Assembly (NCBI RefSeq): GCF_000166415.1
Contig: NC_014654.1
Span: 992,001 to 1,056,000 of the forward strand
DNA length: 64,000 nt
Direction of reading: 5' to 3'
Source of the DNA: Halanaerobium hydrogeniformans
Lineage (GTDB): Bacteria > Bacillota > Halanaerobiia > Halanaerobiales > Halanaerobiaceae
Shown here: positions 9,804 through 58,971 of the stretch, in pieces
Numbering within the stretch: position 1 is the stretch's first letter
Layout: each line of letters opens with the position of its first letter
Made by a program: the position numbers and the translations under genes
Notes under the pieces: model-generated
Seen by the model: the letters and a program-made list of their open reading frames with translations, nothing else
The model's database searches: none
Told to the model about the DNA's origin: nothing

Positions 9804-9845
9804 ATCTATATTAGTAAAATAGTTACGCTTTGATTGGAGGATATT

Positions 9846-11375
9846 ATGAAAAAAAATGATAGTAATAATCCTGTTAGGAAAATAGTCATTAGATATTTCG
9901 TGTTTGGGATTTTATGGATATTGTTTTCTGATTCTTTAGCTGCCTTTCTTTTTAAAGATTATGTTAGCTATCAGCAAATCCAGTCGGTAAAAGGGATAGC
10001 CTTTGTTGTAATAACAGGTTTCTTTTTATATTATCTTCTAGTTAGTAATTTTGAAGAGATTTTTAAAAAAGAGGAAGAGTTATATCAGCAGGCTTATTAT
10101 GATTCATTAACCTCACTTCCTAATAAAAGATATTTAGATGAAGAATTAAAAGCTAAGATAAAAAAATCACAAAATAATAAAAATTATAACTTTGCAGTTT
10201 TTTACATAAATATTGAAAATATTAATACTTTAATGGATATTAAAGGCTATAAGCAGACCAGTAATTTTATCAAAAAACTGGCTGATATCTTAAAAGATAT
10301 AGAAAAAGAAGATTCAAAATCATTTATTGCAAATTATAATTATAGTAAGTTTATAATCATTAACAATAGGGTCAACAAGAAAAAATATAGTAAGAAAGCA
10401 GAAAAAATTCTAGCAGCTGTTCAAAAACTCTGGGAAAAAGGAGAAATAGATTATTATTTAAATATTAATATAGGTATAGCTTTTTACCCTGATTCTGCAT
10501 TAGATGGTGAAGGATTAATTTCGGCTGCTCAAATAGCTGCTCACAGTATAGAAAATAAGAAACAAAATTATAGATTTTTTGATCAGGAACTTTATTTAAG
10601 AAAGTTGAAATTTGAAAATCTAAAACAAGATTTAAGAACCGGTTTAGAAAAAGATGAGTTTTCACTTGTCTATCAACCTAAAATCAGGCTTAGTGATAAA
10701 AAAATTGTCAGTTTAGAAGCTTTAATTCGCTGGCAGCATCCTGATTTAGGTATTATTTCTCCAGCAGAATTTATACCAATTGCCGAAAAAACTCATCTGA
10801 TTAGAGAAATAGGCTGCTGGGTATTAGATGAAGTTTTAAAGCAGATAAGCAAGTGGAAAAATAATACTGAAGAAGAAATCAAGGTTTCTATTAATTTATC
10901 TCCACTGGAATTATCCAATCCAAATAAAATTAAAAATATTGATAGGGCTTTTGAGAAATATAAAATAAAACAGGAGCTAATAGAATTTGAAATAACAGAA
11001 AATGCTTTTTTAGATAATAAATATAATTTTCTAAAGATCTTAAAGCAATTAAAGGGACGAGGTTTTACTATAGCTTTAGATGATTTTGGAAGTGGTTATT
11101 CTTCTTTAAATTATCTTAGCTATTTACCTATTGATAAATTAAAAATTGATAAATTATTTGTAGATAATTTAGAAAAAGAGAAAAATCAGCTTTTAACTCA
11201 ATCGATAATTAGTTTATCACATAATTTAGATTTAAGTGTTATTGCCGAAGGAGTAGAAACCAAAGAACAATTAGATCTGCTTGAAAAATTCAATTGTGAC
11301 CAGGTTCAGGGTTATTATTTTTATAAAGCACTTAGTCCAAAAGAAATAGAAAAATTATTGCTAAATAACGACTGA
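9846..11375 (+). CDS. membrane EAL phosphodiesterase with degenerate GGDEF domain
   Basis: This is a predicted c-di-GMP phosphodiesterase that hydrolyses c-di-GMP to pGpG. Two N-terminal membrane helices (about residues 14-32 and 45-65) lead into a GGDEF-fold domain whose signature is lost: the loop reads NYNYSKF, so diguanylate cyclase activity is unlikely. The C-terminal EAL domain (about 255-505) keeps the catalytic set: LEALIRW, INLSPLEL, EITENAF, DDFGSGYSS, KIDKLF, AEGVET and DQVQGYYF. The ATG at 9846 has SD TTGGAGG; the TTG at 9834 would lie inside that SD. It is monocistronic, with a promoter at 9698. It may lower c-di-GMP for targets such as the MshEN glycosyltransferase at 55913. Confidence 0.9.
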   Translation: MKKNDSNNPVRKIVIRYFVFGILWILFSDSLAAFLFKDYVSYQQIQSVKGIAFVVITGFFLYYLLVSNFEEIFKKEEELYQQAYYDSLTSLPNKRYLDEELKAKIKKSQNNKNYNFAVFYINIENINTLMDIKGYKQTSNFIKKLADILKDIEKEDSKSFIANYNYSKFIIINNRVNKKKYSKKAEKILAAVQKLWEKGEIDYYLNINIGIAFYPDSALDGEGLISAAQIAAHSIENKKQNYRFFDQELYLRKLKFENLKQDLRTGLEKDEFSLVYQPKIRLSDKKIVSLEALIRWQHPDLGIISPAEFIPIAEKTHLIREIGCWVLDEVLKQISKWKNNTEEEIKVSINLSPLELSNPNKIKNIDRAFEKYKIKQELIEFEITENAFLDNKYNFLKILKQLKGRGFTIALDDFGSGYSSLNYLSYLPIDKLKIDKLFVDNLEKEKNQLLTQSIISLSHNLDLSVIAEGVETKEQLDLLEKFNCDQVQGYYFYKALSPKEIEKLLLNND

Positions 11376-55912: not shown

Positions 55913-57781
55913 ATGAAAAATAATAAGGATAGTTTTTTAGGAGAAGCGTTAGTTAAAAGAGCTTTAATAACCGAAGAAGAACTTAATAAGGCCCTGCAAA
56001 TCCAGGCTAAATCCGGAGGACTGCTTGGAGAAATACTTGTGGCTGAAGGTTTTATTAAGATGATTGAGTTGTTTTATATTATTGCTGAAAAAGAAGAGCT
56101 GTCTTTAGGAAGTAATGATTTAGCAGCCTGTCAAAAACTGCTTGATCCTGAGTTAGCTCATAAATTTGAAGTGGAAACTCTGGTTATTCATCAATTTTTC
56201 CCAATTATTATAGAAGACCAGAGATTAAAGGTCTTTGTTTCAAATCAAGGGAATCGGAAAGTTGATGAACTGCTTAAAAATGAATTTGGAGATATAGAAA
56301 TCCACAAGATTATTGCTACAAGTCGGGATATCAGGTTTATGCTCGAAGAAGTTTTTAAAGAAGAGATGGTTGAAGAAGCAGTAAATGGCTTATTTTACCG
56401 CAGTCCAAAAGAATCTGCTTCAACCGTATTTACCTCTGAACAGATATTTTTCTTTTTTCTGGTTATAGCTATTTCTGCATTTTTGGCCTATCTTTATCCA
56501 AGTGAAGCATTAAAATATTTTCTTTATTTTTTCAATATTTTGTTTTTAGCTTCTATACTTTTTAAGTTTGTTTTAAGTATTGTTGGATCTTTTCAAGAAA
56601 AAAAGAACCTTATTTCAGAAGAAGATGTCACCGGTATAGATGAAAAAGAACTGCCTGTTTACAGTATTTTGGTACCCGTTTATAAAGAGCCAGAAGTTAT
56701 AGATAAACTGATTTCAAGTTTGAAGAATTTAGATTATCCTAAAAGCAAATTAGATGTTTTGTTTTTATTTGAAGAAGGCGATATAGAAACTATTGAGGCA
56801 GCTAAAAATGCTTCACCTCCTGATAACTGGAGCTTTATTTATATTCCCGACAGTCATCCGAAAACTAAACCGAAAGCCTGTAATTATGGGCTTAAAGAAG
56901 CAAGAGGAGAACTCTTAACTATTTATGATGCTGAAGACATGCCGGAGCCAGATCAGCTCAAAAAAGCTTATTTAGCATTTAAAAAATCTGATGATAATGT
57001 AATTTGTTTTCAATCTGCTTTAAATTATTTTAATAGAGATGATAATATTTTAACAAAATTATTTACCCTTGAATATTCTTACTGGTTTGATTATATGCTG
57101 CCAGGACTTGATGCTTTAAAACTTCCTATTCCTTTAGGTGGCACATCAAATCATTTTAAAATTGAAAAATTAAGAGAACTGGGAAGTTGGGATCCTTTTA
57201 ATGTTACTGAAGATGCAGATCTAGGAATTAGAGCTAATGCACGAGGTTATAGAGTTGGTGTTTTAAATTCAACAACCTATGAAGAAGCCAATAATAAATT
57301 ATCTAACTGGATTAATCAGCGTTCTCGCTGGTTAAAGGGATATCTGCAGACTTTTCTGGTTCATAACCGACAACCCGTTAAATTTATCCAAAAAGTTGGA
57401 TTTAGAGGTTGGTTTACTCTGCAAATTTTCATCGGTGGTAGTGTACTAACTCATCTAGTAGCTCCATTTTTCTGGTTTTTATTTATTTACTGGCTTTTAA
57501 GTGGCACACCTTATTTTGGAGAATTTTATTACGGAACATTACTGCAAATTTCACTCTTAAACTTGCTATTTGGTAACTTTTTGGGCATCTATCTGGCAAC
57601 AATTGCAGTTTTTAAAAGAAAATATTACAGCTTAATAACCTATGCTCTATTAAATCCTTTTTATTATTTACTGCAGTCGGTAGCAGCCTGGAAAGCACTT
57701 TATCAATTATTTTTTAATCCATTTTATTGGGAAAAAACCCAACATGGTCTTACTGCAAGAGAGGTGAAAGAAAATGATTGA
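55913..57781 (+). CDS. membrane glycosyltransferase 2 with N-terminal MshEN domain
   Basis: This 622-residue processive-type glycosyltransferase has an N-terminal MshEN (GspE_N-type) domain. MshEN domains of PilB/MshE and the exopolysaccharide protein NfrB bind c-di-GMP through tandem LG(E)xLV motifs. Here LGEALVKRALITEEELNKAL and LGEILVAEGFIKMIEL form the pair (about residues 8-60). Two helices follow at about 177-225. The GT2 domain has PVYKEPE, DAEDMPEP (DxD type), a TEDADLG acid and the QRSRW motif at 469-473, as in cellulose-synthase-like enzymes. About four helices close the protein. The product and acceptor are unknown. The next gene overlaps it by 8 bases. The locus has no BcsZ, porin or secretion gene. 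Confidence 0.88.
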   Translation: MKNNKDSFLGEALVKRALITEEELNKALQIQAKSGGLLGEILVAEGFIKMIELFYIIAEKEELSLGSNDLAACQKLLDPELAHKFEVETLVIHQFFPIIIEDQRLKVFVSNQGNRKVDELLKNEFGDIEIHKIIATSRDIRFMLEEVFKEEMVEEAVNGLFYRSPKESASTVFTSEQIFFFFLVIAISAFLAYLYPSEALKYFLYFFNILFLASILFKFVLSIVGSFQEKKNLISEEDVTGIDEKELPVYSILVPVYKEPEVIDKLISSLKNLDYPKSKLDVLFLFEEGDIETIEAAKNASPPDNWSFIYIPDSHPKTKPKACNYGLKEARGELLTIYDAEDMPEPDQLKKAYLAFKKSDDNVICFQSALNYFNRDDNILTKLFTLEYSYWFDYMLPGLDALKLPIPLGGTSNHFKIEKLRELGSWDPFNVTEDADLGIRANARGYRVGVLNSTTYEEANNKLSNWINQRSRWLKGYLQTFLVHNRQPVKFIQKVGFRGWFTLQIFIGGSVLTHLVAPFFWFLFIYWLLSGTPYFGEFYYGTLLQISLLNLLFGNFLGIYLATIAVFKRKYYSLITYALLNPFYYLLQSVAAWKALYQLFFNPFYWEKTQHGLTAREVKEND

Positions 57782-58556
57782 GCTAATAGTATTTGCAGCT
57801 GCCAATTATTTCTTAGTGGCTTACTTTAAAAAAGAAGAAACTGCTTATTTGTATATAGGTAGTTTGATGCTGGCCTTAGTTTATGTTTTAGCACCAGCAG
57901 TAATATTTTTGCTGCCTTTATACAGTCTTATTTTTTATTTTGAGCTAGTTTTTAAAAATAGTGAAAAAGCCTGGGCCCAGCTCTTTACTTTTATTCTGCC
58001 TTCTTTAGCAGCAATATTTTCCTTAAGTTATATCAGCTGGCTTTATGGAAGAGGCTTTCGTTTGATTTATCTCAATGATGCTCTTTTTAATTCGGTTTCA
58101 CTTTACAGTGGTAATTTAGATTATCAGGCTTTTATTTCAGCTTTGTTTAGCAATATAATCTTTCTTGCCTTAAGTTATTTGCCTGTACTGTTGTATTTTG
58201 TTTTTAAAAAAGGTTTTAACAAACCATATCTATATTTATTTTTGATGCCTGCTTTATGGCAGTTTACCGGTTATTTTACAACAGGTTTAAAAGCAGAACT
58301 TTCTTTTTATATGCTCTATTTGTTTTTTGTGATAATATTTTTTGTATTATTTAGTGATGAGCTATCATTAAAGCTAAATAGATTGTACAGTCTTGCTGTA
58401 ATCACTAATGTAGTAATTGCTGCAATATATCTCAGTACTGCTTTAAATATCTATCTACCGGAAAACTATATATTTATCAATCAAAGTATAGATAGTTTTT
58501 TACAATCTTTTGAAAATATAGTTGTAGATAATTGGCCTGGCCCCAGCTTATTTTGA
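57774..58556 (+). CDS. polytopic membrane protein of the MshEN-GT2 locus
   Basis: I do not recognise this 260-residue protein. It has about seven or eight membrane helices (for example FAAANYFLVAYF, GSLMLALVYVLAPAVIFLLP and FYMLYLFFVIIFFVLF) and almost no polar loops. The ATG overlaps the glycosyltransferase gene by 8 bases, so translation is coupled and a shared complex is likely. It may be a polymer-export or acceptor-handling subunit. Its last 40 residues carry a polar segment (PENYIFINQSIDSFLQSFEN). It ends at the -35 of the next promoter. Confidence 0.7.
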   Translation: MIELIVFAAANYFLVAYFKKEETAYLYIGSLMLALVYVLAPAVIFLLPLYSLIFYFELVFKNSEKAWAQLFTFILPSLAAIFSLSYISWLYGRGFRLIYLNDALFNSVSLYSGNLDYQAFISALFSNIIFLALSYLPVLLYFVFKKGFNKPYLYLFLMPALWQFTGYFTTGLKAELSFYMLYLFFVIIFFVLFSDELSLKLNRLYSLAVITNVVIAAIYLSTALNIYLPENYIFINQSIDSFLQSFENIVVDNWPGPSLF

Positions 58557-58581
58557 CATTGTCAATAAAGATTGATATTAT
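58553..58581 (+). promoter_or_regulatory. promoter with palindromic operator over the -35
   Basis: TTGACA (58553-58558) and TATTAT (58576-58581) are 17 bases apart. The -35 is the first arm of the perfect palindrome TTGACA-T-TGTCAA (58553-58565), so a dimeric regulator could compete with sigma factor. It overlaps the stop codon of the previous gene. Confidence 0.7.
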
Positions 58582-58619
58582 ATAAATACTGAATATATTA
58601 TTAAAAAAGGAGAAGTGAT

Positions 58620-58934
58620 ATTATCAGTAAGAAAGCTACAATTTTAAAAGATCTTCTCTCAATGTTTATTGCTCAACACAAAAGCCAACTATCCTATGCC
58701 TTAGGATTTCTAACAGCCTTTGCTTTTAGTATAAGCTATATAAAATTTGGATTAGAATATGCTTTGCTTGCTCTTTTAGCAGGTCTTGTGATATTTGAAA
58801 TATTCAATTACTTTTTTGGTAGTACTCCTGATATTATTGTGATGGGTGTAGATAGTGAAGAAGATATTATGAAGACTTTGAAAAAATCTTTAAACAAAGC
58901 CGTACAGGAGAAGAAAGAAGAAAATAACAAATAA
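58620..58934 (+). CDS. small two-helix membrane protein, possible AUU start
   Basis: I do not recognise this small protein. It has two helices (LSYALGFLTAFAFSISYIKFG and ALLALLAGLVIFEIFNYF) and a polar C-terminal tail of about 35 residues rich in Asp, Glu and Lys (DSEEDIMKTLKKSLNKAV). An ATG at 58662 has no SD. An ATT at 58620 is in frame, 7 bases after GGAG (58609-58612), and adds SKKATILKDLLS, which looks like a cytoplasmic lead. I list that longer form. It has its own promoter and a terminator. Placement next to the GT2 suggests an accessory or regulatory subunit. Confidence 0.6.
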   Translation: MISKKATILKDLLSMFIAQHKSQLSYALGFLTAFAFSISYIKFGLEYALLALLAGLVIFEIFNYFFGSTPDIIVMGVDSEEDIMKTLKKSLNKAVQEKKEENNK

Positions 58935-58947
58935 ATTTTAAAATTAA

Positions 58948-58971
58948 GACAGCCGAGCAGGCTGTTTTTTT
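58948..58971 (+). terminator. terminator after the small membrane protein gene
   Basis: ACAGCC (58948-58953) pairs with GGCTGT (58959-58964) and is followed by seven T residues. Confidence 0.82.

Follow-up and report, generated by a model that had tools for sequence, protein, structure and literature searches.

We analyzed a locus on the plus strand of a 64-kb window of the Halanaerobium hydrogeniformans genome (positions 992001-1056000 of the 2,613,117-bp single contig; coordinates below are those of the window). The host is a non-motile haloalkaliphile that forms an opaque mass when grown without agitation (PMC4237134). The first open reading frame (55913-57781) encodes a 622-residue protein in which an MshEN domain precedes a family 2 glycosyltransferase (GT2), and the second (57774-58556) encodes a 260-residue membrane protein. 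The translational coupling proposed for this pair in the initial annotation, which was made from the sequence alone, agrees with the 8-nt overlap between the two genes, which is preserved in all four Halanaerobium species. We refer to the genome of the window as G000, to that of a 91%-identical sister species as G010, to that of H. congolense as G006 (its locus is L050) and to that of a further congener as G008. The features discussed below are as follows.

55913-57781, plus strand: xagB-like gene for the MshEN-GT2 synthase, 622 amino acids (Pfam, NCBIfam, full-length relatives, AlphaFold2 model)
55913-56407, plus strand: MshEN (GSPII) domain, residues 1-165 (VIA-align to 5htl; phmmer to PilF and MshE chains)
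55934-56005, plus strand: cyclic di-GMP (c-di-GMP) motif I, residues 8-31, with F8, L9, G10, A17, L24, L28 and Q31 (alignment to the published motif)
56021-56092, plus strand: c-di-GMP motif II, residues 37-60, with L37, L38, G39, G46, L53, I57 and K60 (alignment to the published motif)
56651-57352, plus strand: GT2 catalytic domain, residues 247-480 (Pfam; BcsA fold)
56927-56938, plus strand: DAED (DxD) motif, residues 339-342 (alignment of 80 relatives)
57206-57214, plus strand: TED motif, residues 432-434 (alignment of 80 relatives)
57317-57331, plus strand: QRSRW (QxxRW) motif, residues 469-473 (alignment of 80 relatives)
57774-58556, plus strand: shortened xagC/sfz3-like gene; its 260-residue polytopic membrane protein corresponds to the central part of full-length XagC (cluster-0 profile, hhalign, substitution rates)
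58620-58934, plus strand: gene for a 90-residue small membrane protein, judged not to be part of the system (genus-wide distribution, own promoter and terminator)

The combination of an MshEN domain with a cellulose-synthase-type GT2, as first annotated, was recovered by profile and fold comparisons alike. Pfam GT2 families matched the 55913 protein with E-values of 9e-22 and 1e-20, Pfam MshEN matched residues 76-152 (26.0 bits, cut-off 23.1) and NCBIfam NF053729, an MshE-related c-di-GMP motif, matched residues 9-59 (52.4 bits, cut-off 38); together with the fold comparison below, this places residues 1-165 in MshEN. In the AlphaFold2 model (mean predicted local distance difference test score 87.8, predicted template modeling score 0.88), residues 6-148 aligned by VIA-align with c-di-GMP-bound MshE (5htl) over 139 of 139 residues at 2.5 Å (Z 18.3), and residues 190-621 aligned with Escherichia coli BcsA at Z 31.1. 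The mannosyltransferase PcManGT ranked second in the list of structural matches (Z 27.9) and hyaluronan synthases gave Z values of about 24-26; since the PcManGT match reflects a shared fold, it says nothing about the donor sugar. The catalytic motifs were nearly invariant among 80 relatives: TED was present in all of them, as were D339, E341 and D342 of DAED and Q469, R470 and W473 of QRSRW, while A340 occurred in 77 and R472 in 79. The protein fell far below the equivalog cut-offs for CelA (81.5 vs 699.1 bits), PgaC (49 vs 422 bits) and NfrB (20.8 vs 1170 bits). The ratio of nonsynonymous to synonymous substitution rates (dN/dS) relative to the sister species was 0.066, indicating purifying selection. 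Taken together, profiles and model predict a processive GT2 with the cellulose/hyaluronan synthase fold and an N-terminal MshEN domain.

The relatives were collected by a scan of GTDB contigs that confirmed at least 553 loci, from which the best 80 by score, not a random sample, were used; these 80 came from many phyla. The full-length relatives were 42-91% identical to the 55913 protein, which, as an N-terminal MshEN domain fused to a membrane GT2, aligned with the family end to end. A Xanthomonas locus (L123) was 44% identical over residues 9-621. Two Mariprofundus loci (L091 and L093) carried, in order, BcsB, MshEN-GT2, a 500-residue protein, GH113, a 310-317-residue protein and a long protein, and this order and these lengths fit the published sfz1-sfz6 cluster. 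On homology the 55913 protein is thus a member of the known XagB/Sfz2 family of Xanthomonas biofilms and iron-bacteria stalks, an assignment made from the Xanthomonas and Mariprofundus loci together with published descriptions rather than from a reference X. campestris XagB sequence. The same gene set has been published as bcsB-xagB-xagC-xagD (PMC4643136), and both these and the sfz1-sfz4 clusters are in print (PMC4643136, PMC8250860, PMC3609779), as is a 2016 remark on MshEN-glycosyltransferase fusions (PMC5013675); the suggestion that the system was undescribed does not hold. In a Xanthomonas rpfG mutant, xagA and xagB matter for biofilm, and the additional biofilm that this mutant forms is abolished by deletion of xagB (PMC3609779).

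The 57774 protein, initially taken for an unknown family, also has a place in this system. Its match to the XagC profile (the cluster-0 hidden Markov model, 493 positions) covered only positions 141-364 (E 8e-14), and hhalign gave 97.6%; it is, by these comparisons, a shortened XagC/Sfz3 homologue. It lacks the N-terminal third, with the RLENLGxxYPP region, as well as the C-terminal domain. Its dN/dS relative to the sister species was 0.138, a sign of continued constraint. A Foldseek search with the 57774 protein returned nothing significant, and VIA-align placed the GT-C proteins PIG-U and STT3 at the top, but with Z values (5-8.8) that are weak given the helical nature of the protein. One full-length XagC gave a sub-threshold match to PMT_2 (24.4 vs 26.1 bits). 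These likenesses suggest that the 57774 product may be a GT-C-like scaffold minus its catalytic part.

We then considered the neighborhoods of the relatives, counted per locus regardless of kinship and excluding L123. Of about 80 loci, 54-57 had a BcsB-like gene just upstream of the synthase and 57 an XagC-like gene directly downstream. Within Halanaerobium, bcsB was kept only in G008, directly before the GT2 start; outside the genus it was kept in G045 and G027. PF03170 had no match in G000, G006 or G010 at E-values up to 1, a search which a divergent BcsB could escape, and no homologue of the G008 BcsB protein was found in these three genomes. A BcsB encoded elsewhere in G000 is therefore not supported. 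The lack of a BcsB partner noted at first is correct for the G000 genome but not for the family. In the GT2 tree the window clade was nested with the bcsB-bearing G008 and G045 (support 99 and 98), so that the absence of BcsB here is most simply read as a local loss of the gene. About 380 nt of sequence upstream of the GT2 gene in H. congolense showed no visible bcsB end; in this region (L050:1-381), at the place of bcsB in other species, we observed an insertion-sequence-like end with inverted repeats. In G045 (L040:1664-4129) and G027 (L043:16016-18472) the BcsB-like partner begins with a SPOR domain (35.5 and 38.0 bits, respectively); this fusion is unusual and might link the synthase to peptidoglycan.

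With respect to c-di-GMP, the G000 genome encodes 28 GGDEF domains, and a domain search found no PilZ domain either in the genome or in the 622-residue protein; in five other Halanaerobium genomes checked, one PilZ protein of ~220 residues was present in each. The absence of PilZ is in keeping with a non-motile species. Judged by this domain inventory, the cell very probably makes c-di-GMP, and the receptor-type domains that were found are those of MshEN proteins. We aligned the N-terminal domain to the tandem 24-residue MshEN motif (PMC5013675). Most but not all of the ligand-contacting residues were kept: both leucine clusters (with one isoleucine among them), the third-position glycines and Q31 are in place, whereas the motif has R, G, R and Q where the protein has F8, A17, L37 and K60. 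Leucine at the arginine position of motif II is also found in PilF GSPII-B, which has Lys and Leu at the two arginine positions and binds c-di-GMP with a dissociation constant of 6 nM (2 nM for K167L; PMC11731258), so that the loss of both arginines in the 55913 protein is not damning. F8 is a large hydrophobic residue, and no test of Phe at this position was found in the literature. Residues 1-65 had a dN/dS of 0.064, as against 0.066 for the gene, indicating that the MshEN domain is maintained. From the pattern of residues, c-di-GMP binding appears likely and c-di-GMP control of the synthase plausible.

The locus as a whole is best explained, with a probability of about 0.74, as a two-gene, reduced xag/sfz-type surface-polysaccharide synthase. 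The XagB-like protein would build its polymer in the cytoplasm from a nucleotide sugar, threading the chain through its own BcsA/hyaluronan-synthase-like membrane channel, with the N-terminal MshEN domain sensing c-di-GMP and switching synthesis on. Its small partner in the membrane would be the shortened XagC, reduced to a membrane core. The ancestral operon would have included a BcsB-like subunit that this species has lost, and with it gone the polymer would probably form a cell-associated coat or aggregation matrix rather than be secreted by an envelope-spanning machine. The new export route suggested at first finds no support at the inner membrane, given the channel fold and the BcsB of relatives; passage of the outer membrane remains unexplained here.

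Several observations weigh against this interpretation. A full-length GT2 copy is missing in 8 of 12 Halanaerobium genomes, and synthesis without BcsB is unproven in the XagB family. The second motif glutamine contacts the phosphate and ribose of the ligand, and all four Halanaerobium copies have a lysine (K60) in its place. The non-binding PilF GSPII-A, which has the MshEN fold, has His and Arg at the glutamine positions, and the changes that made it bind included restoring Gln at these positions (PMC12002112), so that the loss of this residue is a real concern; for members of the XagB family we came across no published measurement of c-di-GMP binding. One could therefore argue that the MshEN domain has lost its affinity for c-di-GMP and now plays a structural or protein-docking role, leaving the synthase constitutive or otherwise controlled. 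K60 and the replacement of the turn glycine by A17 favor this, as do Mucilaginibacter homologues, which keep the fusion with almost no motif residues, but the retained leucines, glycines and Q31, the GSPII-B precedent for arginine replacements and the constraint on residues 1-65 make it unlikely. Gln at position 60 is kept in only 15 of the 80 family members. In the Mucilaginibacter loci (L102-L128), the MshEN motif of the XagB homologues is almost destroyed while the bcsB-xagB-xagC operon is conserved, and a histidine-kinase-like gene was seen upstream by eye; control there may have shifted from c-di-GMP to a two-component system. The locus could also be a decaying remnant, an incomplete operon with no real output, as the loss of BcsB, the truncation of XagC at both ends and the absence of XagD/GH113 might indicate. 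The low dN/dS of both genes, the intact catalytic motifs and the preserved overlap render this improbable.

Under the interpretation of a reduced xag/sfz-type synthase, the identity of the polymer was approached through the family. A GH113 gene was clustered with the synthase at 7 loci, including Xanthomonas (104-167 bits, cut-off 27), and the clustered proteins matched solved endo-beta-1,4-mannanases with E-values down to 2.5e-25; the Sfz paper had assigned the corresponding Sfz4-type protein to family 10. A mannose-1-phosphate guanylyltransferase gene lay no more than three genes from the synthase at 9 loci in about 6 lineages, two Halanaerobium species among them. Such genes made up 9 of the 406 genes at positions 1-3 and 1 of the 558 at greater distances (p 0.0025 in a one-sided Fisher test, or 0.024 after lineages were collapsed). 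The biofilm of Xanthomonas is dispersed by a beta-1,4-mannanase (PMC3528676, PMC8042644); a 2012 paper asked for the substrate of this mannanase, ManA, and for the polymer made by the Xag proteins (PMC3528676), and according to a 2019 review the nature of the Xag polymer is still to be established (PMC8042644). The GH113 and guanylyltransferase neighbors together with the Xanthomonas mannanase suggest a beta-mannan polymer. We tentatively propose, at somewhat less than even odds, that the XagB/Sfz2 family including the 55913 protein comprises c-di-GMP-regulated synthases of beta-1,4-mannan or a mannose-rich polymer. This evidence is one of association, and the two kinds of gene were not observed together at any locus, bar a partial match at the edge of L091. 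Moreover, GDP-mannose is also needed for other glycans, the G000 genome has no GH113, and its two guanylyltransferase paralogues both lie away from the synthase locus. A glucan or N-acetylhexosamine polymer of the cellulose or poly-N-acetylglucosamine kind is about as credible, since in equivalog profiles and fold the protein comes closest to cellulose synthase, PgaC and hyaluronan synthases and BcsB is a cellulose-type partner. Set against it are the scores far under the CelA and PgaC cut-offs, the linked beta-1,4-mannanase-like hydrolase and the clustering of guanylyltransferase genes within three genes.

Two further kinds of neighbor were observed at the loci of relatives. A 334-386-residue protein (cluster 11; L052, L053, L066, L078 and L088) occupies the place that GH113 has at other loci. 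Neither Pfam nor the PDB gave a match for those members that were tested, and the protein is possibly an unrecognized glycanase. In G045, a 373-residue secreted-looking protein with no Pfam or PDB match follows the full-length XagC (L041:1698-2819) and is a candidate polysaccharide-acting enzyme. Neither was related to GH113 by profile comparison.

The small gene downstream had been proposed as the third component of a new system with its own export route. Its product (58620/58662) was present in 12 of 12 Halanaerobium genomes, including those that lack the GT2, with 58-93% identity in the other eleven, and its homologues were unlinked to the GT2 in G006 and G008, two genomes that have it. The predicted promoter is indeed its own and strong (TTGACA-17-TATTAT with TG, 11/12, extended -10; 58553-58581), and a terminator follows at 58946-58968. 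The three-gene order is conserved in the sister species G010 and nowhere else, and the third gene is unrelated to the system. We therefore rejected the three-gene arrangement, which we regard as very improbable. No in-frame ATG, GTG or TTG occurs near the ribosome-binding site (58620-58661); the AAGGAG is followed, after 7 nt, by an ATT in the right frame, with the same layout in the sister species, and the small gene may use this rare start codon. The EAL phosphodiesterase gene noted in the window is real (9834-11375, 513 residues) and combines a degenerate GGDEF domain (NYNYSKF) with an intact-looking EAL domain; as it lies 45 kb away, we see no special link with the synthase locus.

In this locus nature has pared a widespread synthase down, which makes it useful for finding the minimum required, namely MshEN-GT2 and the XagC membrane core without BcsB. 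The family comparison connects synthases of the XagB type with the supply of GDP-mannose and with a homologue of GH113 beta-1,4-mannanases. If true, the mannan proposal would settle the composition of the Xag biofilm polymer and would extend to the stalks of iron-oxidizing bacteria.

Among known systems, PilF GSPII-B and the MshE N-terminal domain share the MshEN fold and the tandem 24-residue motifs, but in the 55913 protein this domain is fused to a GT2 instead of an ATPase, and F8, A17 and K60 differ. NfrB of E. coli, a c-di-GMP-activated exopolysaccharide synthase (PMC8669469), likewise combines GT2 and MshEN in one protein; its MshEN domain is C-terminal rather than N-terminal and its partner is NfrA rather than BcsB or XagC. 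The UDP-forming cellulose synthase BcsA shares the GT2 fold, the channel region and the DxD, TED and QxxRW motifs, and relatives of the 55913 protein have a BcsB-like partner, while an N-terminal MshEN domain stands in place of the C-terminal PilZ domain of BcsA. Closer are the sfz1-sfz6 and sfb1-sfb4 stalk clusters of Zetaproteobacteria and Ferriphaselus, in which Sfz2 joins T2SSE_N to GT2 and XagC has its homologue in Sfz3; the window has no Sfz1 (BcsB-like), Sfz4 (GH113), Sfz5 or Sfz6. XagB of the Xanthomonas xagABCD operon has the same MshEN(T2SSE_N)-GT2 architecture, full-length homology and a linked XagC-like membrane protein. Compared with that operon, the window, from a different phylum, lacks XagA, XagD and BcsB, has a shortened XagC and has the second MshEN glutamine replaced. 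The system itself is therefore known, and what is new is its reduced Halanaerobium variant.

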